DNA from: Celeribacter sp. HF31 | Lineage (GTDB): Bacteria > Pseudomonadota > Alphaproteobacteria > Rhodobacterales > Rhodobacteraceae | Assembly (NCBI RefSeq): GCF_011806455.1 | Contig: NZ_JAATOT010000006.1 | Coordinates: forward strand, 124,001-188,000 | Length of the DNA: 64,000 nt | Direction of reading: 5' to 3' | Part shown: one piece after another, positions 7,959-24,051 of the stretch | Position numbering within the stretch: position 1 is the first letter of the stretch | How the letters are laid out: the number at the start of each line of letters is the position of its first letter | Notes under the pieces: generated by a model | Databases searched by the model: none | Told to the model about the DNA's origin: nothing | The model's input: only the letters and a program-made list of their open reading frames with translations | Translations under genes and position numbers: made by a program

Positions 7959-8353
7959 ACGATAACCTCCTGTGGGTGTTTGTAAATTTCGGGCTCGGAC
8001 GCAAATGCTCCGGAAAGCCATTGGCGACTCCCGAATGACATTCAGGGAAATGCATCTTTTCCCGGAACACAAGTGTGACCTGACGTGTAGAAGCGTGAAA
8101 TGGCGGAAAGCCGCAAATAATTCTGAAATCCTGTTCTTTCCACCAGCTCAAAACAGGCTTTGGGCTCGTGTCGCTCAGATCGCAATTCCAGGTAAATTGG
8201 TCTTTCTGCGGCGTAAAACCGGAACCTTTGCCCGGGAAAGTTTCCGTTCCGTAGCCAAAGACCGTGGAGGACACAGGCATCGCATCCTCTTGAGATCGGT
8301 GCCGCGCGCTTCATATGATCTCTGTAGACAAAAGACCGCAGGAGGAGATGGCT
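7959..8353. promoter_or_regulatory. Divergent promoter region oppA / aldehyde dehydrogenase
   Basis: 395 bp between two divergently transcribed genes. It must carry promoters for the opp operon and for the dehydrogenase gene. It is less GC-rich than its flanks around 8100-8230. I found no copy of the ATCGTT/AACGAT operator seen before the catechol and TRAP operons, and no convincing small gene. Confidence 0.5.
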
Positions 8354-9799
8354 ATGAGCTTGGATTTGCTGATCGGAGGGGCGGATGTGCCCGCTGAAAC
8401 GGGGCGGACCTATGATCGGATCGACCCTGTGACGGGGATGATCGCGACACAGGCCGCCGCCGCTTCTGTCGCGGATGCGCTCAAAGCCGTGGCCTCTGCA
8501 CAGGCCGCTTTTGCGCAATGGTCGGCTATGGGGCCGGAGGCGCGGCGTAAGGTGCTTGTGGCGGCGGGCGACATCATGGAGGCGCGTGCGGGCGAGTTTG
8601 TCGAGGCCATGGTGACCGAGACCGGCGCGACCGAGGTCTGGGCCGGGTTCAACGTCCATCTCGCCTCCGGCATGCTGCGCGAAGCGGGCGCCATGACGAC
8701 ACAAGTGGGCGGCGAGGTGATCCCCTCGAACAAGCCGGGCAACCTGGCGATGGCGGTGGCAAAGCCGCGGGGCGTGTGCCTCGGGATTGCGCCGTGGAAC
8801 GCACCGGTGATTTTGGGCACGCGGGCGGTTGCGACGGCGCTGGCCTGTGGCAATACGGTGGTGCTGAAATCCTCGGAAATCTGCCCGAAAGTCCATCGTC
8901 TGATCGGCGAATGCCTGACCGAGGCGGGCTTGCCTGCCGGCGCGATCAACGTGATTTCCAATGCGCCCGAAGACGCTGCCGAGGTTGTGAAAGCCCTCAT
9001 TGGGGCGCCCGAAGTGCGCCATGTCAATTTCACCGGCTCGACCGCCGTGGGCAAAATCATCGGGCGTCTGGCGGGCGAAAACCTCAAGCCCGCGCTTTTG
9101 GAACTGGGTGGCAAGGCGCCTTTCGTGGTGCTCGAAGATGCCGATCTCGACGGTGCCGTGAACGCCGCCATCTTTGGCTCATTCATGAACCAAGGCCAGA
9201 TTTGCATGTCCACCGAACGCATCATCGTCGTCGAAGCCGTGGCCGATGCCTTCATCGAAAAACTCGCCGCCAAGGCCGCGGGCCTGCCCTATGGCAACCC
9301 GCGCGACAAAGTGGTGTTGGGCTCACTGGTGACGGAAAAAGCCGCTGAGAAAATGGACGCGCTGATTGCGGATGCCACCGCCAAAGGCGCGAAACTTGTG
9401 GCCGGCGGGATGCGCGAGGGGGCGATCCACGCGGCCACCTTGCTCGACGGCGTGACGCCAGAGATGCGGATTTATGGCGAAGAAAGCTTTGGTCCTGTCA
9501 AATCCATCATCCGCGTGAAAGACGCAGACGAGGCCATCGCGGTGGCCAATGACACGGAATACGGCCTATCGGCGGCGGTGTTTTCGCAGGACATCACCAA
9601 GGCGATGGAGGCCGCGCACCGCATTCAAAGCGGCATTTGTCATATCAACGGCCCGACCGTGTCGGACGAGCCGCAGATGCCCTTCGGTGGCGTGAAGGAC
9701 TCGGGCTTCGGGCGGTTCGGTGGCAAGCTGGGCATCCATGAATTCACGGTCACGCGCTGGATCACCATCGAAGACCCGAAGCAGCATTATCCCTTCTGA
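8354..9799 (+). CDS. NAD(P)-dependent aromatic aldehyde dehydrogenase (salicylaldehyde/vanillin type)
   Basis: 481 residues. AGGAGG lies 8 nt before the ATG at 8354, which is preferred to ATGs at 8315 and 8348. The catalytic Cys is residue 284 in NQGQICMSTER, the general base Glu sits in LELGGKAPF, and APWNAPVILGTRA and the C-terminal MPFGGVKDSGFGRFGG fit the subfamily of NahF salicylaldehyde and vanillin dehydrogenases. It would oxidise an aromatic aldehyde to its acid. The neighbouring catechol meta-cleavage genes suggest it feeds or detoxifies aldehydes for that route, but it is transcribed as its own unit with a terminator behind it, so the link is inferred. Confidence 0.85.
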   Translation: MSLDLLIGGADVPAETGRTYDRIDPVTGMIATQAAAASVADALKAVASAQAAFAQWSAMGPEARRKVLVAAGDIMEARAGEFVEAMVTETGATEVWAGFNVHLASGMLREAGAMTTQVGGEVIPSNKPGNLAMAVAKPRGVCLGIAPWNAPVILGTRAVATALACGNTVVLKSSEICPKVHRLIGECLTEAGLPAGAINVISNAPEDAAEVVKALIGAPEVRHVNFTGSTAVGKIIGRLAGENLKPALLELGGKAPFVVLEDADLDGAVNAAIFGSFMNQGQICMSTERIIVVEAVADAFIEKLAAKAAGLPYGNPRDKVVLGSLVTEKAAEKMDALIADATAKGAKLVAGGMREGAIHAATLLDGVTPEMRIYGEESFGPVKSIIRVKDADEAIAVANDTEYGLSAAVFSQDITKAMEAAHRIQSGICHINGPTVSDEPQMPFGGVKDSGFGRFGGKLGIHEFTVTRWITIEDPKQHYPF

Positions 9800-10354: not shown

Positions 10355-10752
10355 AGGGTCTCCTCCCAAAGTGCCCTGTCTAAAGTGTCCTGTCTGGTGT
10401 CGTCTTCCGTGTCGTCCTGAGATTCGCGCGCTGAGTGACAGATCGGCGCGGATGGCCCGATCTCAAAGCGGGGTGCGTCACTTTAGCCCAATGGGCCGTT
10501 TCGATGTCTGCGGTGTCCTGTCTCTGTCCTGCGCTTTTTAGGCTGTGGACGCTTATTTCAATGGGAAATCAGCACACTCCCCCTGTCTTGCGGCTTTGCG
10601 ATCCCAGGTCGATCTCCTGTGATCGTCATTGGGATAAAAATCGTTTTAAAAGTCAATCTTCAATAAAATATCGTTTTTATTTGACAGCAACGATTAATCC
10701 TCGCCATGATTTGGTCAGCGTGTGGAGGACGCGCAACCAAAGGAGGAGATCA
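10355..10752. promoter_or_regulatory. Divergent control region upstream of the catechol operon
   Basis: 398 bp without a supported gene. The right third (10621-10700) is strikingly AT-rich and holds an ATCGTT...AACGAT inverted repeat, an extra ATCGTT half-site at 10640-10645, and TTGACA at 10681-10686, which could serve as a -35 element with CATGAT at 10705-10710 as -10. Confidence 0.55.
10670..10694. promoter_or_regulatory. Putative GntR operator (copy 1), catechol operon promoter
   Basis: ATCGTT-N13-AACGAT. The spacer is TTTATTTGACAGC, so the operator overlaps a TTGACA promoter element. A nearly identical site with the same spacing lies before the TRAP transporter genes next to the gntR gene (19160-19184). 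This makes it a good candidate for the binding site of the local FadR-type regulator; binding itself is inferred. Confidence 0.65.
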
Positions 10753-11100
10753 ATGCCGGACGGAGCGATGTTTTCGGTCACGCACAGCATCCAGATCAAA
10801 GGGGCGGAGACCGACATCACCTGCGCCGAGGATCAGATGGTGCTGATGGCGATGGAACAGCAAATTCATGTGCCCAGCCCGCGTCCGGTGCGGGTCGGTT
10901 GCCGCAGAGGCGGCTGCGGGGCCTGCCGGGTCAAAGTCACAAAAGGCGACTACACGACCCAGAAATCCAGCCGTGTGCATGTCACCGAAGAGGAGGCCGC
11001 AGAGGGCTATGCGCTGGCCTGTCGCCTTTCGCCCTTGAGCGATCTTGAGCTGGAGCCGGCCTTTCTGGACCCGCGCCGACCGGCGGATCAGGACGGCTGA
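10753..11100 (+). CDS. xylT: 2Fe-2S ferredoxin of XylT/NahT type
   Basis: 115 residues from the ATG that follows AGGAGGAG. Cysteines at 50, 55, 58 and 90 form the CX4CX2C...C pattern of plant-type [2Fe-2S] ferredoxins (VGCRRGGCGACRV ... ALACRL). Ferredoxins of this type sit next to catechol 2,3-dioxygenase genes and re-reduce the active-site iron when it is oxidised by poor substrates such as methylcatechols. Its place directly before the dioxygenase gene (52 bp) supports that role. First gene of the catabolic operon. Confidence 0.9.
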   Translation: MPDGAMFSVTHSIQIKGAETDITCAEDQMVLMAMEQQIHVPSPRPVRVGCRRGGCGACRVKVTKGDYTTQKSSRVHVTEEEAAEGYALACRLSPLSDLELEPAFLDPRRPADQDG

Positions 11101-11152
11101 TCGCCCGCTTTAGACAAAGGCATTTCGACAGGGAACCAGAGGAGGAGAACCT

Positions 11153-12073
11153 ATGTCACAAGAAGGACTTTTACGCCCGGGGATCATCCAGCTTCGCGTG
11201 CTGGATATGGAGGAATCTCTCACCCATTACCGGGACCGGATCGGTCTCGATTACGTCTCGACCGGAGAGGACGGTCGCGTGTACCTCAAGGCTTTCGACG
11301 AATTCCATCGCCACTCCGTCGTGCTGCGCGAGGCCGACAGCGCGGGCATCGATTTCTTTGCCTTCAAGGCCGACGGGCAAGCGGCCGTCGACGGATTTCG
11401 CAAGCGGATCGAAGACTATGGCCTGGCCGTCGAGGACGTCGCCGAGGGCGAAATGCCGGGCACCGGAAAACGCATTGGCTTTACCATTCCCTCCGGCCAT
11501 CGCATCGAGATTTATGCGGATATGGAGCTGTCAGAGACCGCGCCCGAAATCCGCAACCCCTACATCTACAAAGACGAGCCGCGCGGCATGCGCGCGCAGC
11601 GGCTGGACCATTGCCTGCTCTACGGACCGAACCTGCCGGAGGTGGAAAAGTTCTTCACCGAGGTGCTCGATTTCCACATCCCGGAACGCGTCGACCTGCC
11701 GGACGGGACGCTGGCGATCTGGATGACCGTGTCGAACAAGGCGCATGACATCGCCTTTGTGAACCACCCGGAGCCCGGAAAGCTGCACCATGTCGCCTTC
11801 TTCCTCGAGGATTGGAACGACATCGGCCACGCCGCCGATGTGATGACACGCTACGACATTTCCCGCGACATCGGCCCGACCCGCCACGGCATCACCCGCG
11901 GCCAGACGATCTATTTCTTCGATCCGTCGGGCAACCGCAACGAGGTCTTCTGTGGTGGCTACACCGCCTACAAGGATCATCCGACACGGGTCTGGGACGG
12001 CAATCACGTGGGCCGCGGGATTTTCTACTACGAGCGCCAGATGAACGACGCCTTCCTCTCGGTGGTGACCTGA
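11153..12073 (+). CDS. dmpB: Catechol 2,3-dioxygenase (extradiol, meta-cleavage)
   Basis: 306 residues, the same length as XylE/DmpB. Opens the catechol ring next to the hydroxyls to give 2-hydroxymuconic semialdehyde. Fe(II) ligands are visible as His153 (RLDHCLLYG), His213 (KLHHVAFF) and Glu264 (GNRNEVFCGG). His198, His245 and Tyr254, equivalent to known second-sphere residues, are also present. Two vicinal-oxygen-chelate domains are clear. A strong GGAGGAG precedes the start. It lies between its reactivating ferredoxin and an HbpS-like gene. Confidence 0.96.
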   Translation: MSQEGLLRPGIIQLRVLDMEESLTHYRDRIGLDYVSTGEDGRVYLKAFDEFHRHSVVLREADSAGIDFFAFKADGQAAVDGFRKRIEDYGLAVEDVAEGEMPGTGKRIGFTIPSGHRIEIYADMELSETAPEIRNPYIYKDEPRGMRAQRLDHCLLYGPNLPEVEKFFTEVLDFHIPERVDLPDGTLAIWMTVSNKAHDIAFVNHPEPGKLHHVAFFLEDWNDIGHAADVMTRYDISRDIGPTRHGITRGQTIYFFDPSGNRNEVFCGGYTAYKDHPTRVWDGNHVGRGIFYYERQMNDAFLSVVT

Positions 12074-12074
12074 G

Positions 12075-12512
12075 ATGGAGGCGACCCGTCCCACCCGCAG
12101 ATTGACCGCCATGGCGGCCTTCGTGGCCGTGCGCAGTGCCGTGATCCGGGCCGAAGAGCTGGGCGTCACGGTCAACGCCAGCGTCGTGGACGCAGGCGGG
12201 CGCGAGATCGCGTTTTTGCGGGGGGACGGGGCGTTTTTGCCCTCGGGCCAGATCGCGCGGGACAAGGCCTATACCGCCTTGGGCTTCGGCCTGCCAACGG
12301 GCGATTTCTACAAGGCGTTGTCCGGCGCGCCGGCGGTGCTCGCGGGGATCACCGGCCAACCCAATATTGCGGCCTTTCCGGGCGGGCTGCCGATCCGTGT
12401 GGGCAACGAGGTGATCGGCGGCATCGGCGTGTCCGGTGCTTCGGCGGAACAAGATGACATTTGTGCAAGGGCCGGGCTGACCGCCATCGGCCTTGGCCAG
12501 GGAGAAGGATGA
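12075..12512 (+). CDS. GlcG/HbpS-family (DUF336) protein
   Basis: 145 residues. The GlcG/HbpS fold is indicated by NASVVDAGGREIAFLRGDGAF, SGQIARDKAYTALGFGLPT, and IRVGNEVIGGIGVSGASAEQDD. Members bind heme or small molecules and often sit inside meta-cleavage operons, where their role is not settled; stabilising or assisting a metalloenzyme has been suggested. The start codon is 1 bp past the dioxygenase stop, so it is translationally coupled to it. Confidence 0.8.
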   Translation: MEATRPTRRLTAMAAFVAVRSAVIRAEELGVTVNASVVDAGGREIAFLRGDGAFLPSGQIARDKAYTALGFGLPTGDFYKALSGAPAVLAGITGQPNIAAFPGGLPIRVGNEVIGGIGVSGASAEQDDICARAGLTAIGLGQGEG

Positions 12513-12519
12513 GTAAGAG

Positions 12520-14004
12520 ATGAGAGACGGGGTCATGACCTTCACACAAGAAGCGATGCATTTCATCAACGGGGGGTTCACGCCGGGGACGTCGGGGAAG
12601 ACCTTCGACAATATTTCGCCGGTGACCGGCAAGAAGATCGGCATCGTGCACGAGGGGCTCAAACCCGAGGTGGATGCGGCTGTGGCGGCGGCGCGGGCCG
12701 CACTTCGGGGGGAGTGGGGTTATCTGCCCATGGCGGAGCGTGCCGAGATGCTTCATGCCGTGGCCGATGAGATCAACCGCCGGTTCGACGATTTTCTGGA
12801 GGCGGAGATTTTGGACACCGGCAAGCCCAAGGGGCTGGCCTCTCACGTCGACATCCCGCGCGGGGCGGCGAATTTCAAAATCTTTGCGGATCTTGTGAAA
12901 AACGTTCCGACCGAGAGCTTCATGCTCGACACGCCGGACGGGTTCGGCGCGGTGAATTACGGCGTGCGCAAACCCAAAGGCGTGATCGCGGTGATCTCGC
13001 CCTGGAACCTGCCGCTTTTGCTGATGACGTGGAAGGTTGGTCCGGCGCTCGCGTGCGGCAACACGGTGATCGTGAAACCGTCCGAGGAAACGCCGCTGAC
13101 CACCACGCTTTTGGGCGAGGTGATGAACACCGTGGGCGTGCCGAAAGGCGTGTTCAACGTGGTGCATGGCTTTGGCCCGGACAGCGCGGGCGCTTATCTC
13201 ACCGCGCACCCGGATGTGGATGCGATCACCTTCACCGGCGAGACCCGCACTGGCGAGGTGATCATGCAATCTGCGGCCAAGGGCCTGCGTCAGGTGTCGA
13301 TGGAATGCGGCGGCAAGAACGCCGGGATCGTCTTTGCCGATTGCGACATGGATAAGGCGATCGAAGGCACCCTGCGCTCGGCTTTCGCCAACTGTGGTCA
13401 GGTCTGTTTGGGCACGGAACGGGTCTATGTCGAACGTCCGATTTTTGATGAATTTGTTTCGCGCCTCAAAGACGGTGTCGAAATGATGAAGCTCGGGCCG
13501 TCGGAGGACCCGGAAACCTCCATGGGGCCGCTGATTTCGCAAGAGCATAAGGACAAGGTGATGTCCTATTACAAGCTCGCCGTCGAGGAGGGTGCGACCG
13601 TTATCACTGGCGGCGGTGAACCCGAAATGCCGGACGATCTGAAAGGCGGCGCCTGGGTCGAGCCAACGATCTTCACGGGCCTCTCGGAAGATGCGCGCTG
13701 CATCAAGGAAGAGATTTTCGGCCCCGTCTGTCACATCGCACCGTTCGACACGGAAGACGAGGTGATCCGGCTCGCCAATGACACGACATACGGTCTCGCG
13801 ACCGCGATCTGGACCGAGAACCTCACGAAGGCGCACCGTGTGGCGCGTCAGATCGACGTGGGTCTGGCCTGGGTCAATTCGTGGTTCCTGCGCGATCTGC
13901 GCACGGCCTTTGGCGGCGCGAAACAGTCTGGCATCGGGCGCGAAGGTGGGGTGCATGGGTTGGAGTTCTATTCCGAACTGACCAACGTCTGCGTGAAACT
14001 CTGA
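12520..14004 (+). CDS. dmpC: 2-hydroxymuconic semialdehyde dehydrogenase
   Basis: 494 residues, ALDH superfamily. Oxidises the dioxygenase product to 2-hydroxymuconate (4-oxalocrotonate enol form) with NAD+. The catalytic Cys is residue 296 (FANCGQVCLGTER), with Glu in SMECGGKNAG, the NAD-binding ITFTGETRTGE, and the C-terminal AFGGAKQSGIGREGG typical of XylG/DmpC. A start at the second ATG (12535, MTFTQ) is possible. Its presence commits the pathway to the oxalocrotonate branch, since no HMS hydrolase gene is found here. Confidence 0.92.
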   Translation: MRDGVMTFTQEAMHFINGGFTPGTSGKTFDNISPVTGKKIGIVHEGLKPEVDAAVAAARAALRGEWGYLPMAERAEMLHAVADEINRRFDDFLEAEILDTGKPKGLASHVDIPRGAANFKIFADLVKNVPTESFMLDTPDGFGAVNYGVRKPKGVIAVISPWNLPLLLMTWKVGPALACGNTVIVKPSEETPLTTTLLGEVMNTVGVPKGVFNVVHGFGPDSAGAYLTAHPDVDAITFTGETRTGEVIMQSAAKGLRQVSMECGGKNAGIVFADCDMDKAIEGTLRSAFANCGQVCLGTERVYVERPIFDEFVSRLKDGVEMMKLGPSEDPETSMGPLISQEHKDKVMSYYKLAVEEGATVITGGGEPEMPDDLKGGAWVEPTIFTGLSEDARCIKEEIFGPVCHIAPFDTEDEVIRLANDTTYGLATAIWTENLTKAHRVARQIDVGLAWVNSWFLRDLRTAFGGAKQSGIGREGGVHGLEFYSELTNVCVKL

Positions 14005-14030
14005 AGGGCAGGAAGCTGAAGGGTAGGGAA

Positions 14031-14825
14031 ATGACAAGCGAAGCGAATATTCAAAAGGCAGCCGATCAGCTTTGGCAGGCCTGGCAAAGCGGCACGCCCG
14101 GCGGGCCAATCCGCGCGTTGCTGGACGAGGGCGACGTGGCGGCGGCCTATGCCGTGCAGGAGATCAACACCAAGCGCTGGCTGGGCGGCGAAGAACGCGT
14201 GCTCTCGGGCCGCAAGATCGGGCTGACGTCTGTGGCGGTACAAAAACAATTGGGCGTGGATCAGCCGGATTACGGCATGCTCTTTGCCGATATGGAATAT
14301 ATGGACGGCGAGGAAATCCCGGTCTCCGCCGTGCAACAGCCCAAGGTCGAGGCCGAGATCGCCTATGTGGTCGCGGCGCCCCTGACCGGCGGCCATATCA
14401 CCATGGTCGATCTGATGGCCTCCATCGGCTACGTCGTGCCGGCGCTCGAAATCGTCGGCTCGCGGGTCAAGGCGTGGGACATCCGCATCACCGACACCAT
14501 TGCCGACAACGCCTCGTCCGGCATCTACGTCTTGGGCCAGACCCCGAAACGCCCCGGCGATTTCGATCCGCGCCTGTGTGGCATGGTGATGACCAGGAAC
14601 AACGAGCCGGTGTCAGTCGGCGCGGGCGCGGCCTGTATGGGCAGCCCGCTCAACGCGTCCTTGTGGCTGGCGCGCACCATGGCCAAGGCGGGCCGTCCGC
14701 TGGGCCCTGGCGATGTCATTCTCTCCGGGGCGCTGGGCCCCTTTGTCTCGGCTGAGCCCGGCGATGTGTTCGAAGCCCGCATCAACGGTCTGGGCTCCGT
14801 CCGTGCCGCTTTCGCAAAGGAATAA
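14031..14825 (+). CDS. dmpE: 2-oxopent-4-enoate hydratase
   Basis: 264 residues of the hydratase/decarboxylase family related to fumarylacetoacetase. Adds water to 2-hydroxypenta-2,4-dienoate to give 4-hydroxy-2-oxovalerate. Key pieces are [31 protein letters not shown] with acidic metal ligands, PALEIVGSR and the [11 protein letters not shown] loop. The start at 14031 has GGGTAGGGAA just before it. In other bacteria the enzyme forms a complex with the decarboxylase DmpH, encoded four genes downstream here. Confidence 0.93.
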
Positions 14826-14829
14826 GACT

Positions 14830-15774
14830 ATGGAAAAGATCAAATGTGCCATCATCGGCTCGGGCAATATCGGCACCGACCTGATGATCAAGATCATGCG
14901 CACCTCCAAGGTGTTGGACATGGCCGCGATGGTCGGGGTCGACCCGAACTCTGACGGTCTGGCGCGGGCCAAACGGCTCAAGGTGGCGACGACGCATGAG
15001 GGCATCGACGGCTTGGTGAAGCTGCCGGAATATCAAGACATCCGCATCGTCTTTGATGCGACGTCTGCGGGCGCGCATAAGCGCCACAACGAGGTGCTGC
15101 AGCGTGACGGCAAGCAGGTGATCGACCTGACTCCCGCCGCCATCGGTCCCTTCACCATTCCGCCGGTCAATCTGGATGCGAACCTCAATCAGATGAACGT
15201 CAATATGGTGACTTGCGGCGGCCAGGCGACCATTCCGATGGTGGCCGCCGTCAACCGCGTCTCGCCGGTGATCTACGGCGAAATCGTCGCCTCGGTGTCG
15301 TCGAAATCCGCAGGGCCCGGGACGCGCGCCAACATCGACGAATTCACCGAAACCACCGCGCATGCCATTGAGGCCGTCGGCGGCGCGAAACGCGGTAAGG
15401 CGATCATCATCCTGAACCCGGCCGAGCCACCGGTGATCATGCGCGACACGGTCTATTGCCTCTGCGAAGAGGCCGACCAGGAGGCGATCCGCCAATCCAT
15501 CCTCGACATGGTCGCGGAGGTGCAAAACTACGTGCCGGGCTATCGCCTCAAGCAAGACATCCAGTTCGAGCATTTCGGCGACAACACCCCGCTGACCATC
15601 CCGGAAAGCGGGGGCACATTCACCGGCCTCAAGGTCTCGGTCTTCCTCGAAGTCGAAGGCGCCGCGCATTACCTGCCGGCCTATGCGGGCAACCTCGACA
15701 TCATGACCTCTGCGGCGATGAAAACCGCGGAAGCGCTCGTTCACAAACGCAATTGGATCAAGGAGGCCGCGTGA
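14830..15774 (+). CDS. dmpF: Acetaldehyde dehydrogenase (acylating)
   Basis: 314 residues. Converts acetaldehyde plus CoA to acetyl-CoA, receiving acetaldehyde through a channel from the DmpG aldolase. N-terminal NAD-binding motif [11 protein letters not shown], active-site Cys129 in [13 protein letters not shown], and the [16 protein letters not shown] and [13 protein letters not shown] segments are diagnostic for DmpF/XylQ. The length matches the family. It starts 4 bp after dmpE and ends 1 bp before dmpG. Confidence 0.95.
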
Positions 15775-15775
15775 G

Positions 15776-16795
15776 ATGACCAAGGTTTACATTCAGGACG
15801 TGACGCTGCGCGACGGCATGCATGCGATGCGCCACCAATACGATCTGGGCCATGTGCGCGCGATTGCTGAGGCGCTGGACGAGGCCGGTGTGGATGCCAT
15901 CGAAGTGACCCACGGCGATGGGGTGGCGGGGTCCACCTTTAACTACGGCTTCGGGCGCCAGACCGATGTGGCGTGGATTTCCGAGGCGGCGAAAGTGGTG
16001 AAAAACGCCAAGCTGACCTGTCTTTTGGTGCCGGGCATTGGCACTTTGGAAGACCTGAAAAAGGCGCATGACGCGGGGGTCGTCTCCGTGCGCGTGGCAA
16101 CCCATTGCACCGAGGCGGACGTCGCCGCGCAGCATATCCGGGCGGCGAAAGAGATGGGCATGGATGTCTCGGGCTTTCTGATGATGGCGCATATGACTCC
16201 GCCCGAAAAACTCGCCGAACAGGCCAAGCTGATGGAAAGCTATGGCGCGGATTGCGTCTATTGCACAGACTCTGGCGGGCGTCTCACGATGAAAGACGTC
16301 ATCGCGCGGATGGAGGCCTATAAGGCCGCGCTCAAACCCGAAACCCAGATCGGCGCGCATATGCACGAGAACCTGTCTTTGTCGGTGGCGAACTCGGTCG
16401 TGGCCGTTGAGCATGGCGCCTACCGGGTCGATGCTTCGCTGGCTGGCATGGGCGCAGGCGCGGGCAACACGCCGATCGAGGCCTTCGCCGCCGTCGCCGA
16501 CCTCTATGGCTGGGAGCATGGCTGTGACGTGTTCAAATTGCAGGACGCCGCCGAAGACCTCGTGCGCCCGCTACAGGACCGTCCGGTGCGGGTGGATCGC
16601 GAAACCATGACGCTGGGCTACGCGGGCGTCTACTCAAGCTTCCTGCGCCACGCCGAACGGGCCGCCGAGATGTACGGCCTCGACACGCGCGATATTTTGG
16701 TCGAACTGGGCAAACGCCACATGGTCGGCGGGCAGGAAGACATGATCGTCGATGTCGCCCTCGACATGGTCAAAGCCAAGGAGGCCGCAGCATGA
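15776..16795 (+). CDS. dmpG: 4-hydroxy-2-oxovalerate aldolase
   Basis: 339 residues, a DRE-TIM metallolyase. Splits 4-hydroxy-2-oxovalerate into pyruvate and acetaldehyde and forms the channelling complex with Dmp[15 protein letters not shown] carries the catalytic Arg and Asp; the metal-ligand HxH motif is in [16 protein letters not shown], where Glu replaces the more common His/Asn neighbour; [17 protein letters not shown] closes the barrel. Overlaps the next gene by 4 bp. Confidence 0.95.
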
Positions 16796-17559
16796 AAAGC
16801 CTCGCAGAGCTGGCAGACTACGTGGACGAAGCGGCGCGCACGGCCACAGAAATCCCGCAAATCTCCGACACCCGGCCGCTGAGCGTCGAGGACGCCTACG
16901 CGGTGCAGGCGCTCTCGATGCAGCGCCGTTACGCGCGCGGTGAAAAGCGCATCGGCATCAAGATGGGACTGACCTCGCGGGCCAAGATGATCCAGGTCGG
17001 CGTCTCTGACGTGACCTGGGGCCGACTGACCGACGCGATGCGCGAAGAAGAGGGCGGCGTGGTCTCCATGTCGCGCTTCGTCCACCCGCGCGTCGAACCG
17101 GAGATCGCGTTTTTGATCAAGACACCGCTGTCGGGCAAGGTTTCCGCTTTGGAGGCCATGTCGGCGGTGGAGGCCGTGGCGCCCGCGCTCGAAATCATCG
17201 ACAGCCGCTACAAGGCGTTCAAATTCGATGTCGGCGACGTGATCGCGGACAATTCGTCGTCGTCCGGTTTCGTGCTCGGCACATGGCACAGCCCGGAGAC
17301 GGACATCTCGAATTTGGGCATGGTGCTGTCGATCAACGGTCGCCCGCAAGAAATCGGGTCAACGGCTGCGATCCTTGGCCATCCGGTGCGCTCGCTTGTC
17401 TCGGCGGCGCGGATGGTGGCCTCGGCGGGCGAAGTGCTGAACCCCGGAGACATCGTTCTGGCGGGCGGCGCGACGGCGGCGATCCCGATGGAAGCGGGGC
17501 AATCCGTGCTGCTCGAGGTCGAAAGCCTCGGTCAGATCGGGTTCAACATCGGAGATTAG
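16792..17559 (+). CDS. dmpH: 4-oxalocrotonate (2-oxo-3-hexenedioate) decarboxylase
   Basis: 255 residues, same fold family as DmpE. Decarboxylates 2-oxo-3-hexenedioate to 2-hydroxypenta-2,4-dienoate. Visible are [19 protein letters not shown], the acidic ligand region [25 protein letters not shown] and [11 protein letters not shown]. Encoded in an ATGA overlap with dmpG. The two related enzymes dmpE and dmpH are distinguished by the LTSRAKM/SSSSG pattern here against LTSVAVQ/ASSG in dmpE. Confidence 0.93.
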
Positions 17560-17562
17560 GCC

Positions 17563-17754
17563 ATGCCGTTCATCGAAGTGACATTGGTCGAAGGCCGCAC
17601 GCCCGAGATGAAATCCAAGCTGATCGAAAAGGTGACGGAAGCCACTGTCGAGGCGATTGGCGCTCCAATCGAGGCCATTCGCGTCTGTATCCGCGAGGTG
17701 CCGCCGGAAAACTGGGGTGTCGCGGGGGAGCAAAAATTCGTCACCAAGGGGTAA
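17563..17754 (+). CDS. dmpI: 4-oxalocrotonate tautomerase
   Basis: 63 codons, 62 residues after Met removal. Interconverts 2-hydroxymuconate and 2-oxo-3-hexenedioate. After processing, Pro1 is the catalytic base, and Arg11 (EGRTPE) and Arg39 (IRVCI) are in the canonical positions. Trp50 replaces the usual Phe50 of the hydrophobic pocket. Lies 3 bp after dmpH. Confidence 0.95.
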   Translation: MPFIEVTLVEGRTPEMKSKLIEKVTEATVEAIGAPIEAIRVCIREVPPENWGVAGEQKFVTKG

Positions 17755-17763
17755 GGGGACAGC

Positions 17764-18345
17764 ATGTCCGAGCCGCTCATGTCCGAACCACTTGTGGAGC
17801 CGGGTCAGGAAGGCCCGGTCACCATCTCGATCTCGCGCCGCGTCAAACCCGGTTGCGAGGCGCACTACGAAGACTGGCTGCATGGCATCATCCATGCGGC
17901 CGGCGGTTTTCCCGGTCATATGGGGGTGAATGTTCTCAAACCTTCGGGCGCGACCGGCGGGCGCTATGTGCTGATTTACAGGTTCGCCACATGGGCGCAA
18001 TGTCAGGCCTGGGAGGACAGCGAAACGCGCGCCGATTGGGTCGCGAAACTTGGCGATCTGGTCGAAGGCGAGGGCGAACGCAAACGCGTCACCGGGCTTG
18101 AGGCCTGGTTCGAATTGCCGGAGGTGCCCGCCGCCAAACATGCGCCGCGCTGGAAAATGTCTCTCTTGTTGATCGTCGTGGTCTTTGCGCTGGTCTACCC
18201 GCTGCAACTCATCGTGCTGCCGCTGATCCCCGCCTGGCCGCATGGGCTCAAGACGCTGGTGATTGCCATCATTCAGGTGCTGTTGATGACCTATCTTGTC
18301 ATGCCGCGGGTGACCAAAGCGCTGAAAGCCTGGCTCTTTGTCTGA
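17764..18345 (+). CDS. ABM-domain protein with C-terminal membrane spans
   Basis: 193 residues. Residues about 18-110 form an antibiotic-biosynthesis-monooxygenase-like ferredoxin fold (VTISISRRVKPGCEAHYEDW, then GRYVLIYRFATWAQCQAWEDS). Two C-terminal hydrophobic segments follow (MSLLLIVVVFALVYPLQLIV and LKTLVIAIIQVLLMTYLVM). This architecture is known as an unassigned family. Here it closes the catabolic operon, 9 bp after dmpI, so it may tie an oxidative or quinone-handling step to the membrane. That role is a guess from position only. Confidence 0.75.
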   Translation: MSEPLMSEPLVEPGQEGPVTISISRRVKPGCEAHYEDWLHGIIHAAGGFPGHMGVNVLKPSGATGGRYVLIYRFATWAQCQAWEDSETRADWVAKLGDLVEGEGERKRVTGLEAWFELPEVPAAKHAPRWKMSLLLIVVVFALVYPLQLIVLPLIPAWPHGLKTLVIAIIQVLLMTYLVMPRVTKALKAWLFV

Positions 18346-18348
18346 GCT

Positions 18349-19062
18349 TTAGTCCGACAGGTCGTGTTGCTGCGTCAGGTCGGTGTAGGATTTTTCGATA
18401 TGCGCCTCAATGGCCGCGACGCAGGCCGCGATGTCGCCCGCAATCGCCGTGTCGAAAATCGCTTTATGCTCCACCCGAACATCGCGCGGCAGGGAACGGT
18501 CGTCGATCAGGCGGCGGTGATAGCGATAGGAATGTTGGTGCAACGTCCGGCGAAAGCGTTTCAGCCAGGCATTGTCGCAATTCTGCACGAGGCAATCGTG
18601 GAAATTTGAATTCCACTCGTCCCAGTCCGGCGCGAACTCCGGTTTGCCCTCGCCGATCAGCCGCTCCTCGATGCGCGACAGGCGGTGGTAGGCGGCGACC
18701 AGATCGGCCTCCCAGTCTTCGGTGCGATTGGCCAGAGAGACACGCAGCGCCTCGGCCTCGATCATCTTGCGCGCGTCGGTGATGTCGCGAAAATCCTTGA
18801 GCGTCAGAGGGGCGACGCGAAAGCCGCGCTGTTGTTCCGAGGTCACCAGATCGTCGATCAACAGCCGCGAGATCGCCTCGCGCATGGTCGAGGTCGAGAC
18901 GCCGAATTCGAGGCGTAATTTGTCGACATGCAGCCGCTCGCCGGGCCCGAGCGCGCCGGAAATCACCCGTTCGCGGATCTGTTCCTGAACCGTTTCGATG
19001 GCGGTCTTTTTGCTTGTGCCCTGGGTTTTATCGCCTGTGGCGAGGGGGTGTGGCTTGTTCAT
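18349..19062 (-). CDS. GntR-family (FadR/FCD) transcriptional regulator
   Basis: 237 residues. Residues about 25-85 hold the winged helix (IRERVISGALGPGERLHVDK, VSTSTMREAISRL, EQQRGFRVAPL). The rest is an FCD effector domain with three histidines in FHDCLV, RVEHKAIF and EAHIEKS, the pattern of metal-binding FCD proteins that sense carboxylic acids. It is convergent with the catabolic operon (3-bp gap) and divergent from the TRAP genes. The inverted repeat shared by both promoters makes it the likely local regulator, probably a repressor released by an aromatic or ring-cleavage acid. Confidence 0.88.
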   Translation of the reverse strand: MNKPHPLATGDKTQGTSKKTAIETVQEQIRERVISGALGPGERLHVDKLRLEFGVSTSTMREAISRLLIDDLVTSEQQRGFRVAPLTLKDFRDITDARKMIEAEALRVSLANRTEDWEADLVAAYHRLSRIEERLIGEGKPEFAPDWDEWNSNFHDCLVQNCDNAWLKRFRRTLHQHSYRYHRRLIDDRSLPRDVRVEHKAIFDTAIAGDIAACVAAIEAHIEKSYTDLTQQHDLSD

Positions 19063-19159
19063 ATCGCTTTGGCTTCAAGATGTGCGGGGTTTGTCTAGAA
19101 ATGGCACCCCCTCGTCGAAATGTCGAGGATTTGCTGTCTGGGCAGGCATGGAAAAAATA

Positions 19160-19184
19160 ATCGTTTTTTATTTGACCCAACGAT
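19160..19184. promoter_or_regulatory. Putative GntR operator (copy 2), gntR / TRAP intergenic
   Basis: ATCGTT-N13-AACGAT with spacer TTTTATTTGACCC, matching the copy at 10670-10694 in both half-sites, spacing and the embedded TTGAC. It lies about 100 bp upstream of gntR and 85 bp upstream of the TRAP binding-protein gene, so it could control both directions. Confidence 0.65.
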
Positions 19185-19269
19185 TTTACTCGTTAATCTC
19201 TTTTACAGAGGAGGAGTCGCGGGCGCTGGGGAGGCCGGTGTTGGCGGCCAATTTTGGAGGAGGAACATC

Positions 19270-20298
19270 ATGAAACAGAGGCTGACCGGCGCAGTTTGCG
19301 CCGCGATCATGGCTGGCGGCTTTGCGGGGACCGCTCTGGCGGAGGATAAGGTGGTGGAGATGAGTTTCTCGCACGATCTGCCGACGCAACACCCGCTGCA
19401 TTCCCAGGGCTTTCAGGTCTGGGCCGACAGCATCCGCGCGGCCTCGAATGGCACGCTGGACATCAGTTTCTTTCCCGCCGGTCAGCTCGGCAAGGCCGAG
19501 GACGAATATGACATCGCCAAATTCGGCATCGCCGATTTCGTCTGGGCCAACCCGGGTCACACGCCGGGCCGCTTCCCGATCATGGCTTTGGGCGAGCTGC
19601 CTTTTTTCATCAAATCCGGCCTTGGTGGCACAGAGGCGATGAACGAATGGTATGCAGCGTATAAAGATCAGGAAATGAGCGACGTGAAATTCTGCGTCGT
19701 GCACCTGCATGATCCGGGCACCTTGCATTCCACCTCGGAAATCCGCACGCCTGCGGAGATGAAGGGCAAGACGATCCGTCCGGCGAATGGCACCATCGGG
19801 CGTCTGGTACAGAGCATGGGCGGCTCCTCCGTGCAGGTCGGCCCGTCAGAGGCGCGCGAAGTTCTGGAACGCGGGGCGGCGGATGGCATCACCTTCCCGT
19901 GGCGCTCGATCTCGATTTTCGGCATGGATGACGTGGTGCATTATCACCCCGACATGCCGCTCTACGTGACCAATTTCATCATCGCGATGAACAAGGACCG
20001 CTACGACAGCCTGTCGGAAAGCCAGCAAGGTGTGATCGACGATCATTGCTCGCCTGAATGGGGGGCCAAGATCGCCGCCGGTTGGGTGGCCTTCGACAAT
20101 GAAGGCAAGCGCCTGTTTCAGGAGAGCCCTGAGCACCATGTGCTTGAGCTGAGCGACGAGGAGCTTCAGCAGTGGAAAGACGCCTCTGCCTTCCTGTTGG
20201 ACGATTGGAAAGCCAATGTGAGCGCCAAGGGTCTCGATGCGGATGCGATCTATGATGCCTTTGTGGAGCGGCTCGAAGCCCATGACGCAAAATTCTGA
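19270..20298 (+). CDS. TRAP transporter substrate-binding protein (DctP family)
   Basis: 342 residues. GGAGGAGG precedes the ATG at 19270. A Sec signal peptide (MKQRLTGAVCAAIMAGGFAG then TALA) directs it to the periplasm. The DctP fold is shown by FSHDLPTQHPLHSQGFQVWAD, FFPAGQLGKAEDEYDI, and MKGKTIRPANGTIGRLVQ with the Arg that usually grips a substrate carboxylate. The substrate is therefore an organic acid. The shared operator with the catechol operon suggests an aromatic acid or a related ring-derived acid. Confidence 0.88.
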   Translation: MKQRLTGAVCAAIMAGGFAGTALAEDKVVEMSFSHDLPTQHPLHSQGFQVWADSIRAASNGTLDISFFPAGQLGKAEDEYDIAKFGIADFVWANPGHTPGRFPIMALGELPFFIKSGLGGTEAMNEWYAAYKDQEMSDVKFCVVHLHDPGTLHSTSEIRTPAEMKGKTIRPANGTIGRLVQSMGGSSVQVGPSEAREVLERGAADGITFPWRSISIFGMDDVVHYHPDMPLYVTNFIIAMNKDRYDSLSESQQGVIDDHCSPEWGAKIAAGWVAFDNEGKRLFQESPEHHVLELSDEELQQWKDASAFLLDDWKANVSAKGLDADAIYDAFVERLEAHDAKF

Positions 20299-20839
20299 CA
20301 CATCCGCTGGCGGGGCCTTCGGGCTCCGCCGTTTCGCCACATGGGTCGAATTCGCGGCCGCCTTTCTGATGGGGCTGGTGACGCTTTTGGCCTTTGGCTC
20401 CGCTGTGATGCGCTATGCCTTCTCCGCGCCGATCCCGGACAGCCACGACATCGGGCGGCTGGCGCTTGGTGTGGCGATTTTCTGGGGTGTGGCGACGGTG
20501 AATTATACCGGCACGCATATCTCCGTCGATCTGCTCTATGAGATGCTGGGCAAAACCTGGCGCCGGGCGATGGATTTCATTTCCACCTTGCTCGTCCTGC
20601 TGTCCTTCGCGGTGCTGACCGTGATGATGTCCAAAAATGCGCAGGATGTGTTCGCGACCGGCGAGCATTCCTATGATCTCAGGTTTCAGATCTGGCCGGC
20701 CTATTGGCTGATGGTCATCGGGGCGGGGCTTGCGACGCTGACGACGGCTTTGCGGCTTTGGCTCATTGTCAAAGATGAGACGCCGCATGCGCATGAGGAC
20801 CATCATGAGGGCGAGCCGGCCCTCGCGGTTGAAGAATAA
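20282..20839 (+). CDS. TRAP transporter small permease (DctQ family)
   Basis: 185 residues with four hydrophobic spans (FAAAFLMGLVTLLAFGSAVM, IGRLALGVAIFWGVATVNY, MDFISTLLVLLSFAVLTVMM, and YWLMVIGAGLATLTTALRLW). The start at 20282 overlaps the end of dctP by 17 bp, which couples the two. An earlier ATG at 20237 would overlap further and lacks a rationale. The cytoplasmic tail is His/Glu-rich (HAHEDHHEGE). Confidence 0.85.
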   Translation: MTQNSDTSAGGAFGLRRFATWVEFAAAFLMGLVTLLAFGSAVMRYAFSAPIPDSHDIGRLALGVAIFWGVATVNYTGTHISVDLLYEMLGKTWRRAMDFISTLLVLLSFAVLTVMMSKNAQDVFATGEHSYDLRFQIWPAYWLMVIGAGLATLTTALRLWLIVKDETPHAHEDHHEGEPALAVEE

Positions 20840-20858: not shown

Positions 20859-22157
20859 ATGGACCGGGAAACGGTGATGATCGTGGGCTTTGTCGCCCTG
20901 TTCTTCATGATGGCCATTCGCGTGCCGATTGCCATCGCGATGAGCCTTGTTGGCATCGGGGGCTTTGCCGCCGTGGTCGGCCCGACGCAGGCGCTGCGCC
21001 TCGTGTCTCTGTCGCCTTTGTCGACGGCGACCACCTATCACTTGGGGATGATCCCCATGTTCATCCTGATGGGTGCCTTTGCGACCCGATCGGGCATGAG
21101 CCACGAATTGTTCCGAGCCGCAGGCGCCTGGCTCGGGCACCGGCGCGGCGGGCTTGCGCTCTCGACGATTGCGTCTTGCGCGGGGTTTGCCGCCATCTCA
21201 GGCTCCTCCATCGCCACGGCGGCGACGCTCACCAAAGTGGCTTTGCCGGAAATGCGCCGGGCGGGATATGCCGATTCTGTCTCCTCCGGCGTGATCGCTG
21301 CGGGCGGCACGGTGGGCATCCTGATCCCGCCCTCCATCGTGCTCGCGGTCTATGGCATCATCACGGAACAGGACATTGGCAAGCTCTTCATTGCCGGTCT
21401 CGTGCCGGGGCTTCTGGCGGTCGCGCTTTACATGCTGACCGTGTCGATCATCGCCTATCTGCGGCCGGATGACATGCCTGTGGGGCCGCGTCAGGGTTGG
21501 GGCGAGCGTTTCAAATCCCTGCGTGATGTCTGGGCCATCGCCTTGCTGTTTTTGCTTGTGGTCGGCGGCATCTACGCCGGTGTCGTGACCCCGACCGAGG
21601 CCGCCTCTCTGGGGGCCGTGGGGGCTTTGGCCATCGGGGTGGCACGTCGACGCCTGTCTTGGACGGACATCAAATTCTGCCTCGTCGACAGCCTGCGCAT
21701 CTCGATCTCGATCTTTTTCGTCTTTATCGGCGCGCTGCTGTTCTCTTATTTCCTCGCCATCACCCGCGCACCACAACAGGTGGCGGAATATCTCACCGCC
21801 CTGCCTTTGGGTCCGATGGGCATCATGGTTCTGATCCTGATCCTCTATCTGGTGCTGGGCTGTGTGCTGGACTCGATGGCGATGGTGGTGCTGACCGTGC
21901 CGATCCTGTTCCCGGTCGTGACCAGCCTCGGCTTCGATCCGATCTGGTTCGGTGTCATGGTGGTCATGGCGATTGAGCTGGGCCTGATCACGCCGCCCAT
22001 CGGGATGAATGTCTTCGTCATCAACTCGGTCGAACGCAACATCGGTCTGACGACGATTTACAAGGGCCTCTTGCCCTTCATCGCCATCGACGTGGTGCGG
22101 ATCGGGGTGCTGCTGTTCTTCCCCTCCATCGCGCTGTTCCTGCCAAGCTTGATGTAG
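20859..22157 (+). CDS. TRAP transporter large permease (DctM family)
   Basis: 432 residues, about 12 membrane spans. Typical DctM pieces are IPMFILMGAFATRSGMSHEL, GFAAISGSSIATAATLTKVALPEM, AGGTVGILIPPSIVLAVYGI and ITPPIGMNVFVINSV. It carries the ion-coupled transport step for the solute delivered by the DctP protein. It ends 9 bp from the convergent hmuV stop codon with no visible terminator between. Confidence 0.92.
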   Translation: MDRETVMIVGFVALFFMMAIRVPIAIAMSLVGIGGFAAVVGPTQALRLVSLSPLSTATTYHLGMIPMFILMGAFATRSGMSHELFRAAGAWLGHRRGGLALSTIASCAGFAAISGSSIATAATLTKVALPEMRRAGYADSVSSGVIAAGGTVGILIPPSIVLAVYGIITEQDIGKLFIAGLVPGLLAVALYMLTVSIIAYLRPDDMPVGPRQGWGERFKSLRDVWAIALLFLLVVGGIYAGVVTPTEAASLGAVGALAIGVARRRLSWTDIKFCLVDSLRISISIFFVFIGALLFSYFLAITRAPQQVAEYLTALPLGPMGIMVLILILYLVLGCVLDSMAMVVLTVPILFPVVTSLGFDPIWFGVMVVMAIELGLITPPIGMNVFVINSVERNIGLTTIYKGLLPFIAIDVVRIGVLLFFPSIALFLPSLM

Positions 22158-22166
22158 GTCGTGCCC

Positions 22167-22967
22167 TCAGGCGGGCAGGGCGGCGCTGGCTTGGGGGAGA
22201 ATCCACGGACCGCCGCAAGGCGGCGGCGTGTTGGTCCGTAGCGCACAGCCGTAGCAGGCCGAGAGCGCATGGTCGGTCAGCACCTCGCGTGGGGTGCCCT
22301 CCGCGCGGAGTTTCCCTTCACTCAAAAGCGTCACCCGATCCGCGAACATCGAGGTCAGGTTCAGGTCATGCATCACGGCGATCACCCCGCCGCCACGCCG
22401 GGCGTAGTCGCGGGCGATCTCCATGACGGTGAGCTGGTGCCCGATGTCGAGCGCAGAGACCGGTTCGTCGAGAATGAGCCAGCGCGGATGGCCATCCAGC
22501 ACCGGCTCCCAGATCTGCACCAAGACACGGGCGAGCTGCGCCCGCTGGCGTTCGCCACCCGACAGTTCCTGCACCATGCGGCCCTCGAAGCCATCAAGCC
22601 CGACGCGGGCAAGAGCCTCATGGGGCAGATGATCAAGGCCTTGTGCCCGTCCGGTCGACAGCCCTGCGGTCAGGCCCAGACGCACGAGTTCCAGAACGGT
22701 GAAAGGAAAGGCGATGTTCCCGGATTGCGGCAGAACGGCCCGGCGCTGCGCCAGATCGAGCGCAGAAAGCTGTGACAAAGACGTGCCATCGAGGCTGACC
22801 TCGCCGGTGAACGCCTGTTCCCCGGTCATGGCGCGCAGAAGCGTGGTTTTGCCGGACCCGTTGGGGCCGACAATGGCGGTCACCTCGCCCGCGCGGGCGG
22901 AAAAATCGACCGTATCGAGCACTTTGCGCGCCCCGAACTGCACGGTGATGTCTGAGGCCACAATCAT
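22167..22967 (-). CDS. hmuV: Heme ABC transporter ATP-binding protein HmuV
   Basis: 266 residues. Walker A GPNGSGKTT near residues 34-42, Q-loop LPQSGNIAFPF, signature LSGGERQRAQLARVL, Walker B WLILDEPVSALD and the switch HDLNL. The insert ARVLVQIWEP before Walker B is typical of HmuV. Energises heme import across the inner membrane. Last gene of hmuSTUV; the Cys-rich C-terminus (CYGCALRTNTPPPCGG) is an oddity of this copy. Confidence 0.92.
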   Translation of the reverse strand: MIVASDITVQFGARKVLDTVDFSARAGEVTAIVGPNGSGKTTLLRAMTGEQAFTGEVSLDGTSLSQLSALDLAQRRAVLPQSGNIAFPFTVLELVRLGLTAGLSTGRAQGLDHLPHEALARVGLDGFEGRMVQELSGGERQRAQLARVLVQIWEPVLDGHPRWLILDEPVSALDIGHQLTVMEIARDYARRGGGVIAVMHDLNLTSMFADRVTLLSEGKLRAEGTPREVLTDHALSACYGCALRTNTPPPCGGPWILPQASAALPA

Positions 22968-22968
22968 C

Positions 22969-24048
22969 TCAACTCTCCAAAAGTGCGCGGTTTTTCAAGA
23001 GGATCCAGAGGAAGAACGGTCCACCGAGACAGGCGGTGACAATGCCTATGGGAAGCTCGGCGGGGGAAACAGCCAAACGGCTGACCATATCCGCAAGCAA
23101 AAGCATGATAGCGCCCAGAAGTGCGGCGTTGGGCAAGAGGTTGCGATGCTCCGGCCCTTGGACCAGCCGCAAAAGATGCGGCACGACGATGCCGATAAAG
23201 CCGATCCCGCCGGTGATCGCGACCGACGCCCCGACGGAGCCCGCCACAGACAGGATCGCGATGCGTTTCATCCGCTGCGTATCGATGCCCATGTGCGAAG
23301 CGACCGCTTCGCCCAGCGCCAGAGCGTCCAAAGCGCGGGCCAGAAACGGCGCGGTGATCAGCGCCAGCGCGATGATCGGCCCTGCTGTCAGAAGCTTCGC
23401 CCAAGTGGCCCCCGCCACCGATCCCATGCCCCAGAACGTCAAATCGCGGAGCTGATCGTCGGTGGCTTTGTAGACGATGAACCCGGTGAGCGCGCCGGTC
23501 AGCGCACCCAAAGCAATGCCCGCGAGCAACATGGTGGCGACCGAGGTCCGCCCGCCGCGCGTGGCGATTTTATAGAGCACCAAAGTGGAGACCCAACCGC
23601 CGAAGAACGCCGCAACAGGCACCAGATAGGCGCCAACGAGATTTTGCAGCGCCAAGGGCAAAAGCCCGCCCAAAACAATCGCCGCCACCGCGCCAAAACC
23701 CGCGCCCGCCGAGACGCCTACAAGGCCCGGATCGGCCAGAGGGTTGCGAAACAGCCCCTGCATCACCGCGCCTGCGACGGCCAGTGCCGCGCCGACCAAA
23801 GCGCCAGTCAACACACGCGGCATGCGGATGTCCCAGACCACGGTCATATCGACCAGACGCGCCTCGCCGATGCCGAATTTGGCCAAAAGGGCCGCGATCA
23901 CATCCGTGTCGCCCGCCGCGCCCCAGCCCAGCCCCATGAGCATGGTGAGCACCAAAAGCGCGATGAGCCCGAGGCGCAAAAGACGCGCTTTGGCGCGACG
24001 GTCCCCGGCGAGAGGCGGGATCACGGGGCGGGTTTCGGCGATGGCCAT
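22969..24048 (-). CDS. hmuU: Heme ABC transporter permease HmuU
   Basis: 359 residues, FecCD/BtuC family with about ten membrane spans. Diagnostic segments are DIRMPRVLTGALVGAALAVAG, GLFRNPLADPGLVGVSAGAG, and GGIGFIGIVVPHLLRLVQGP. The N-terminal 25 residues are cytoplasmic and basic. The spacing of 1-3 bp on both sides places it in one transcript with hmuT and hmuV. Confidence 0.92.
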   Translation of the reverse strand: MAIAETRPVIPPLAGDRRAKARLLRLGLIALLVLTMLMGLGWGAAGDTDVIAALLAKFGIGEARLVDMTVVWDIRMPRVLTGALVGAALAVAGAVMQGLFRNPLADPGLVGVSAGAGFGAVAAIVLGGLLPLALQNLVGAYLVPVAAFFGGWVSTLVLYKIATRGGRTSVATMLLAGIALGALTGALTGFIVYKATDDQLRDLTFWGMGSVAGATWAKLLTAGPIIALALITAPFLARALDALALGEAVASHMGIDTQRMKRIAILSVAGSVGASVAITGGIGFIGIVVPHLLRLVQGPEHRNLLPNAALLGAIMLLLADMVSRLAVSPAELPIGIVTACLGGPFFLWILLKNRALLES

Positions 24049-24051
24049 GGC

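Follow-up and report, generated by a model that had tools for sequence, protein, structure and literature searches.

Do the catechol meta-cleavage operon, the importer genes and the GntR-family regulator gene that neighbour each other in Celeribacter sp. HF31 form a single regulon, and if so, how might it be controlled? The locus was analysed in a 64,000-nucleotide stretch of the genome (contig NZ_JAATOT010000006.1, positions 124,001 to 188,000; hereafter the window). A sequence-only reading had proposed one regulon comprising gntR, which encodes a GntR/FCD protein, the ferredoxin and catechol 2,3-dioxygenase (C23O) operon, and the dctP, dctQ and dctM genes of a tripartite ATP-independent periplasmic (TRAP) importer, based on two inverted repeats, ATCGTT-N13-AACGAT, with identical spacing. 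Both repeats are indeed present and exact, at 10670-10694 (ATCGTTTTTATTTGACAGCAACGAT) before the catechol operon and at 19160-19184 (ATCGTTTTTTATTTGACCCAACGAT) between gntR and the TRAP genes. Shuffled windows contained on average 0.01 such palindromes, and none of 100 shuffles reached two. No further exact copy was found in the 3,595,678-base assembly (13 contigs, 96% complete), and the reversed-pattern control gave none. The spacers had also been described as similar; a core, TTTATTTGAC, is common to both sites, but its position differs by one base, with TTGAC at position 12 of the catechol site and position 13 of the TRAP site.

The specificity of the motif depends on how it is defined. With up to two mismatches, the palindrome occurred at 52 places in the own genome, compared with 18 for the control. 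The comparison set consisted of seven named relatives, six Celeribacter and Salipiger pentaromativorans (loci L033-L039), all with a corresponding gntR; an eighth locus, L040, with 31% identity over a portion of the protein, was excluded. In these seven, up to one mismatch gave 25 places (control 1), 10 of them at the cluster and 15 elsewhere. Because of these counts the bare palindrome, once loosened, is not diagnostic, and it was dropped as a genome-scan motif. When up to three mismatches were allowed, the fuller pattern ATCGTTTTTWWTTKRMNNNAACGAT, built from sites seen beforehand, matched 15 places in eight genomes and none in the control. Each of the 15 lies in the cluster or at the TRAP genes that have moved in C. 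neptunius. Thus the possibility raised earlier, that the motif is frequent at unrelated promoters, applies to the loosened palindrome as far as frequency goes, but not to the fuller motif.

The catabolic-operon site is kept in all seven relatives, as an exact palindrome in six and with one mismatch in S. pentaromativorans (L039). The gntR-TRAP site is present in the five relatives that have TRAP genes at that place, exact in L033, L034 and L037 and with reversed boxes in L038 and L039. In C. neptunius (L035) the genome scan gave one extra site on another contig (L068:7669) before the genes around it had been inspected. The dctP that starts 84 bp downstream of this site shares 94% identity with that of the window over 322 residues and has dctQ and dctM alongside; the finding of this site at relocated TRAP genes is a prediction that could have failed. 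Since the site is conserved at both operons and also accompanies the relocated genes, we regard the existence of one regulon, as judged from sequence, as strongly supported, in agreement with the original proposal.

The enzymes under the catabolic site vary. In L033, L034 and L038 the locus is without the ferredoxin, C23O, HbpS-like and ABM genes, and the operator precedes the semialdehyde dehydrogenase gene. The genomes of these three and of L039 have extradiol dioxygenases only 28-32% identical to the C23O of the window, and no paired box was found around those with 31-32% identity in the C23O-lacking genomes (regions L065-L067). Salipiger has a third site (L039:4970-4994), which precedes genes for an extradiol dioxygenase, an HpaB-type oxygenase, a protein with an FAD (flavin adenine dinucleotide)-synthetase domain and a flavin reductase (L039:940-4994). 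Two more distant genomes also have paired boxes. In G031 the boxes (L060) lie between the gene of a GntR with 44% identity and a divergently transcribed, homologous ferredoxin-C23O operon, whose C23O is 80% identical to that of the window, and in G049 (GntR 54% identical; L061) box pairs stand at the meta operon (N14) and at gntR (N13).

A compilation of 17 sites indicates how the operator may be read. In both boxes, positions 1, 3, 4 and 6 are always A, C, G and T, respectively. The boxes read ATCGTT, AACGAT or AACGTT, in one case AACGCT, and both orientations occur. The TRAP-type sites of L038, L039 and L068, like the L060 site, have one box or both in reverse. The consensus AWCGWT is its own reverse complement, so that such flips would have no effect if every box forms a full site by itself. 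Ten relative loci (mostly picked via gntR, and not independent) contained 36 AWCGWT pairs within 60 bp; 15 of these were 19 bp apart, and the next spacing occurred three times. The pattern AWCGWT-N13-AWCGWT occurred at 25 places in 11 genomes (reversed control 2), 17 of them in the regulon and one before a 37%-identical gntR in G017; in the own genome it occurred only at the two window sites. Thus two self-palindromic AWCGWT boxes with a 19-bp spacing describe the operator better than a single 25-bp palindrome does.

Each site had been said to cover a TTGAC promoter element, and the operators do straddle the -35 at both promoters. TTGAC lies at operator position 12 in eight of eight catechol sites and at position 13 in seven of seven TRAP sites, while N13 is constant; it lies at position 13 in the third Salipiger site and at 14 in G031. 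Since TTGAC shifts within a fixed box spacing, it probably acts as promoter and the box pair as operator. At the catechol-type sites the -10, at gap 18, is CATGAT in six of eight, CATGTT in L038 and diverged in L039; at the TRAP-type sites TANNNT is found at gap 16 in all seven. A box similar to the auxiliary one at 10640-10645 stands 29 bp (L033, L034) or 30 bp (L035) upstream of the catabolic site, and none is at the corresponding place in L036-L039.

These arrangements suggest a mechanism that we consider probable. The GntR/FCD protein would repress both operons through one type of operator. Each AWCGWT box would probably hold one dimer, the two dimers being bound together. The boxes flank the -35 and extend into the -35/-10 spacer, so bound protein should exclude RNA polymerase from both promoters, and repression by promoter occlusion fits this geometry. 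The FCD domain probably binds a meta-cleavage intermediate that frees the protein from DNA, and the C23O/2-hydroxymuconate operon and the importer, of aromatic-acid type, would then be induced jointly.

The family of the regulator was examined from its domains, its neighbours and a tree. The protein falls in the FCD (FadR-type) branch of the GntR family, passing both domain cut-offs (PF00392, GntR, 59.5 bits; PF07729, FCD, 70.2 bits), and its closest named relatives are from Celeribacter (93% identity to C. naphthalenivorans). Membership of the CsiR/GlaR group was rejected (104 bits against an NCBIfam equivalog cut-off of 218). An AlphaFold model (mean predicted local distance difference test score 73.6, predicted template modelling score 0.47, 8 sequences) was not used. 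AphS and BphS, GntR repressors of phenol and biphenyl pathways in Betaproteobacteria, bind several 14-nucleotide palindromes, AAATmTCGAkATTT, which has been taken as a sign of cooperative binding (PMC6449761), and BphS represses the bph promoter pE until released by the pathway metabolite HOPDA (2-hydroxy-6-oxo-6-phenylhexa-2,4-dienoate) (PMC11448139, PMC10282184). As expected of a regulator of this type, gntR adjoins the meta-cleavage genes. In a tree that contained no experimentally named AphS or BphS sequence, the rhodobacteral GntRs grouped with betaproteobacterial meta-cleavage and bph regulators (22 rows, support 83/78), their neighbours being plasmid-borne regulators of Sphingobium, Simplicispira, Cupriavidus and Paraburkholderia; this weakly supports a placement near those regulators.

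Compared with the AphS/BphS consensus, the best window boxes matched at 11 of 14 positions (centres 10672.5 and 19124.5) and 10 of 14 (19162.5), all others at fewer than 10. The number of such boxes upstream of gntR was equalled or exceeded in 1 of 300 shuffles. The box centred at 19124.5, AAATGTCGAGGATT, is 62 bp upstream of the gntR start and 38 bp from the left TRAP box. It is kept as TGTCGAGG in seven of eight species (Salipiger is the exception), also where gntR has no TRAP genes next to it. This box may serve gntR autoregulation, or alternatively could be part of gntR's own promoter. With their fixed spacing and flipped orientations, the paired boxes resemble the multiple AphS/BphS boxes more than a single 25-bp palindrome.

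Box pairs were also sought upstream and downstream of gntR at 29 other loci (L004-L032), and N13 pairs beat all 40 shuffles at L004 (the G049 gntR, also L061), L005 (G031, L060), L011 (G017, L063), L014, where the pair scored 4.0, and L018. The paired boxes on contig 75 of G017 (L063:6160-6184) stand directly before the 37%-identical gntR, and no window-type meta-cleavage genes were found in the 17 kb covered there, an indication that the box pair predates this regulon. Two plasmid clusters were noted in addition. That of Simplicispira suum (NZ_CP027671.1, L099) combines meta-cleavage genes and an FCD regulator 37% identical to that of the window, with TRAP genes and a second FCD regulator close by. 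That of Cupriavidus campinensis has several ATCGAT/ATCGTT-type boxes (L101:7755-7817) before an alpha/beta hydrolase gene in a bph-like cluster; an FCD regulator encoded close by shares 41% identity with that of the window.

Several observations weigh against the regulon and mechanism as drawn here. The gntR gene converges with the catechol operon, and regulators of aromatic pathways are usually divergent from their operons (PMC6449761). At the catechol promoter the count of AphS/BphS-type boxes was reached in 40 of 300 shuffles, that is, at chance level, and 9 of the 22 rows in the tree group fall outside the meta-cleavage label. One of the 15 off-cluster palindromes in the relatives is exact (G201:C54:3587), and seven of the 25 paired-box places lie elsewhere. 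The -10 elements of the window match only three or four of six positions of the consensus, which is that of Escherichia coli, and no convincing -10 was found at the third Salipiger site (2/6) or the G031 site. C. neptunius and C. persicus (L036) have the left box alone and no TRAP genes beside gntR; the L036 locus starts at a contig end, and the absence of TRAP genes there applies beside gntR only. Finally, the counts across relatives are not independent events, since the closest of them have a common ancestry (the GntR proteins of L033 and L034 are almost the same).

The joint control itself could be explained in other ways. One GntR dimer might read the whole 25 bp as one inverted repeat, ATCGTT and AACGAT being its half-sites, as the fixed N13 and the perfect repeat at both window sites and at nine cluster sites in six relatives would allow. 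We consider this unlikely, because the reversed boxes of L038, L039, L068 and L060 break the long palindrome but not two self-palindromic boxes, the invariant positions are the same in both boxes, and most FadR-subfamily sites have their conserved GT and AC 2-3 nucleotides apart, far closer than 13 (PMC4494728). It is also quite improbable that the protein is an activator or a dual regulator, a role reported for BphR1 in strain KF707; at bph operons GntR regulators do act both ways according to operator position (PMC10282184), but conserved boxes on either side of the -35 that extend into the -35/-10 spacer are the arrangement of a repressor. The assignment of the boxes to the adjoining GntR rests on co-occurrence, so a regulator encoded elsewhere might bind them while this GntR has other targets. 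This seems very unlikely, given that G031, G049 and all seven named relatives have the boxes together with an ortholog or homolog of gntR, and that a box pair precedes the 37%-identical gntR in G017.

What the importer carries is less clear-cut. DctP matches the Protein Data Bank entry 7nqg, the nearest solved binding protein, with E 8.9e-91 and 138 of 318 aligned residues identical (43%), and its Arg170 aligns opposite residue 149 of that chain; we take 7nqg to be TarP of Rhodopseudomonas palustris, a binder of aromatic acids. TarP binds coumarate, caffeate, ferulate and cinnamate, and its carboxylate-binding arginine is Arg149 of the mature protein (PMC3610893). DctP thus has two features of a TarP-type protein, DctP family membership and a conserved carboxylate-binding arginine, and on this match an aromatic carboxylate is the likely substrate. 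Among 394 same-family genomes, a DctP at E 1e-90 was found in 21 besides the own one, with identities of 43-48% throughout. The sequence-only reading had the importer bring in a precursor of catechol. The resemblance to an aromatic-acid binder agrees with this, but the TRAP genes are kept in four relatives (L033, L034, L038 and L039) without a C23O-like protein above 32% identity. As to routes to catechol, none of eight oxygenases scanned in the own genome (both ring-hydroxylating-oxygenase matches and the best six of 20 FAD_binding_3 matches) reached the salicylate, benzoate or anthranilate cut-off, phenol hydroxylases (PF02332) not having been searched for; those for PobA and 3-hydroxybenzoate 6-monooxygenase were passed. 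It is nearly an even question whether the importer instead takes up another substrate (a phenylpropanoid acid, for example, or indole-3-acetate or a product of ring cleavage) and owes its co-induction to something else. The ligands of TarP and the presence of a separate TRAP binding protein in an iac-like cluster elsewhere in the genome are in line with such a substrate, but the importer is apparently controlled together with catechol cleavage in the window species, and with HpaB-type hydroxylation in Salipiger, which points to a single aromatic route. For the HpaB of Salipiger, neither the own genome nor G198 or G201 gave a match at E 1e-30.

The iac-like cluster (G000:C13:41000-53000, L116) contains, in order, genes for an amidase, an acyl-CoA-dehydrogenase-like monooxygenase, a ring-hydroxylating oxygenase, a short-chain dehydrogenase/reductase, a reductase and the TRAP binding protein, and is syntenic with a plasmid of Sagittula stellata. 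From gene order we presume it to be an iac cluster. An iac cluster encodes conversion of indole-3-acetate to catechol (PMC6624763), and that of L116 may do the same. An IacC-like oxygenase was found in four of four Celeribacter genomes with C23O and in one of four relatives without, too few to conclude from; it was absent from G031, which has C23O, and from G049.

Taken further, the GntR/FCD repressor would read a rigid 19-bp box pair, much like a ruler, while the -35 shifts within it, and TRAP genes and exchangeable ring-cleavage modules (C23O; HpaB with another extradiol dioxygenase; or none at the locus) would form one regulon across Celeribacter, Salipiger and related Rhodobacterales. We advance this generalization tentatively, as somewhat less probable than not. 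The closest known analogy may be with AphS and BphS: in both cases a GntR protein goes with a meta-cleavage operon, several short palindromes centred on CG stand at the promoter, and repression is probably lifted by a pathway intermediate (PMC6449761, PMC11448139, PMC10282184). The window system differs in its AWCGWT core (theirs are TCGA-centred 14-mers), its rigid 19-bp pairs, the inclusion of a TRAP importer, the convergent gntR and its Rhodobacterales host. AphS regulons contain COG3181 transporter proteins, and the study that describes them nowhere has the word TRAP in its main text (PMC6449761). An aromatic-acid TRAP importer and catabolic enzymes also share a regulon in the CouR/TarPQM system of R. 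palustris, where the regulator is a different one and the pathway is non-beta-oxidation of coumarate (PMC3610893). NanR of E. coli is likewise a GntR repressor of import and catabolism, with several cooperative dimers on repeated short boxes (PMC8012715), but has direct GGTATA repeats, sialic acid as ligand and a 32-residue N-terminal extension. BusR, also of the GntR family, recognizes a bipartite motif at a fixed distance of 22 bp (PMC8517857); unlike the FCD protein of the window, it has an RCK_C effector domain and a tetrameric coiled coil, and responds to cyclic di-AMP. The window DctP would be 43% identical to TarP itself if 7nqg is that protein.

A literature search joining Rhodobacterales, GntR, TRAP and an aromatic meta-cleavage regulon found no paper, and we make no wider claim of novelty. 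The locus gives a testable regulon for aromatic-degrading marine Rhodobacterales and ties an uncharacterised TRAP importer to ring cleavage. Its natural variants, with flipped boxes, a shifted -35 and moved or lost genes, separate operator from promoter without experiment. If the proposal is true, it would aid annotation of AphS/BphS-type regulators and their importers beyond Betaproteobacteria.

Table 1. Predicted regulatory elements and genes of the locus, in window coordinates
Feature	Position	Strand	Details
Auxiliary AWCGWT box (ATCGTT)	10640..10645	.	30 bp upstream of catechol-operon box pair
Predicted catechol-operon operator	10670..10694	+	boxes 10670-10675 and 10689-10694, centres 19 bp apart
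-35 element TTGACA	10681..10686	+	inside catechol operator
Probable -10 element CATGAT	10705..10710	+	gap 18; 4/6 to consensus
2Fe-2S ferredoxin	10753..11100	+	Pfam Fer2
Catechol 2,3-dioxygenase (C23O)	11153..12073	+	TIGR03211, 402 bits against cut-off 320
HbpS-like protein	12075..12512	+	PF03928
2-hydroxymuconic semialdehyde dehydrogenase	12520..14004	+	TIGR03216, above cut-off
2-oxopent-4-enoate hydratase	14031..14825	+	best NCBIfam PRK11342, below cut-off
Acylating acetaldehyde dehydrogenase	14830..15774	+	TIGR03215, above cut-off
4-hydroxy-2-oxovalerate aldolase	15776..16795	+	TIGR03217, above cut-off
2-oxo-3-hexenedioate (4-oxalocrotonate) decarboxylase	16792..17559	+	best NCBIfam TIGR03218, below cut-off
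4-oxalocrotonate tautomerase	17563..17754	+	TIGR00013, above cut-off
ABM-domain protein	17764..18345	+	PF03992; C-terminal hydrophobic stretch (read from translation)
GntR/FCD regulator	18349..19062	-	converges on catechol operon, divergent from TRAP genes
gntR-proximal box AAATGTCGAGGATT	19118..19131	.	11/14 to published AphS/BphS consensus
Predicted TRAP-operon operator	19160..19184	+	boxes 19160-19165 and 19179-19184, centres 19 bp apart
-35 element TTGACC	19172..19177	+	inside TRAP operator
Probable -10 element TAATCT	19194..19199	+	gap 16; 3/6 to consensus
TRAP substrate-binding protein DctP	19270..20298	+	PF03480; conserved Arg170
TRAP small permease DctQ	20282..20839	+	PF04290
TRAP large permease DctM	20859..22157	+	PF06808

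From its position, we take the ferredoxin to be XylT-like. An aldehyde dehydrogenase is encoded at 8315-9799 of the window, below the cut-offs of the 25 NCBIfam models shown, and in L033 and L034 its ortholog directly adjoins the operator. An alpha/beta hydrolase gene follows the TRAP genes in Salipiger and in C. neptunius. In the window they adjoin a set at 22167-25956 that by eye looks like hemin uptake (ATP-binding cassette ATPase, permease, binding protein and an HmuS-like protein), and hemin-uptake-like genes adjoin the TRAP genes in L033 and L034 too.

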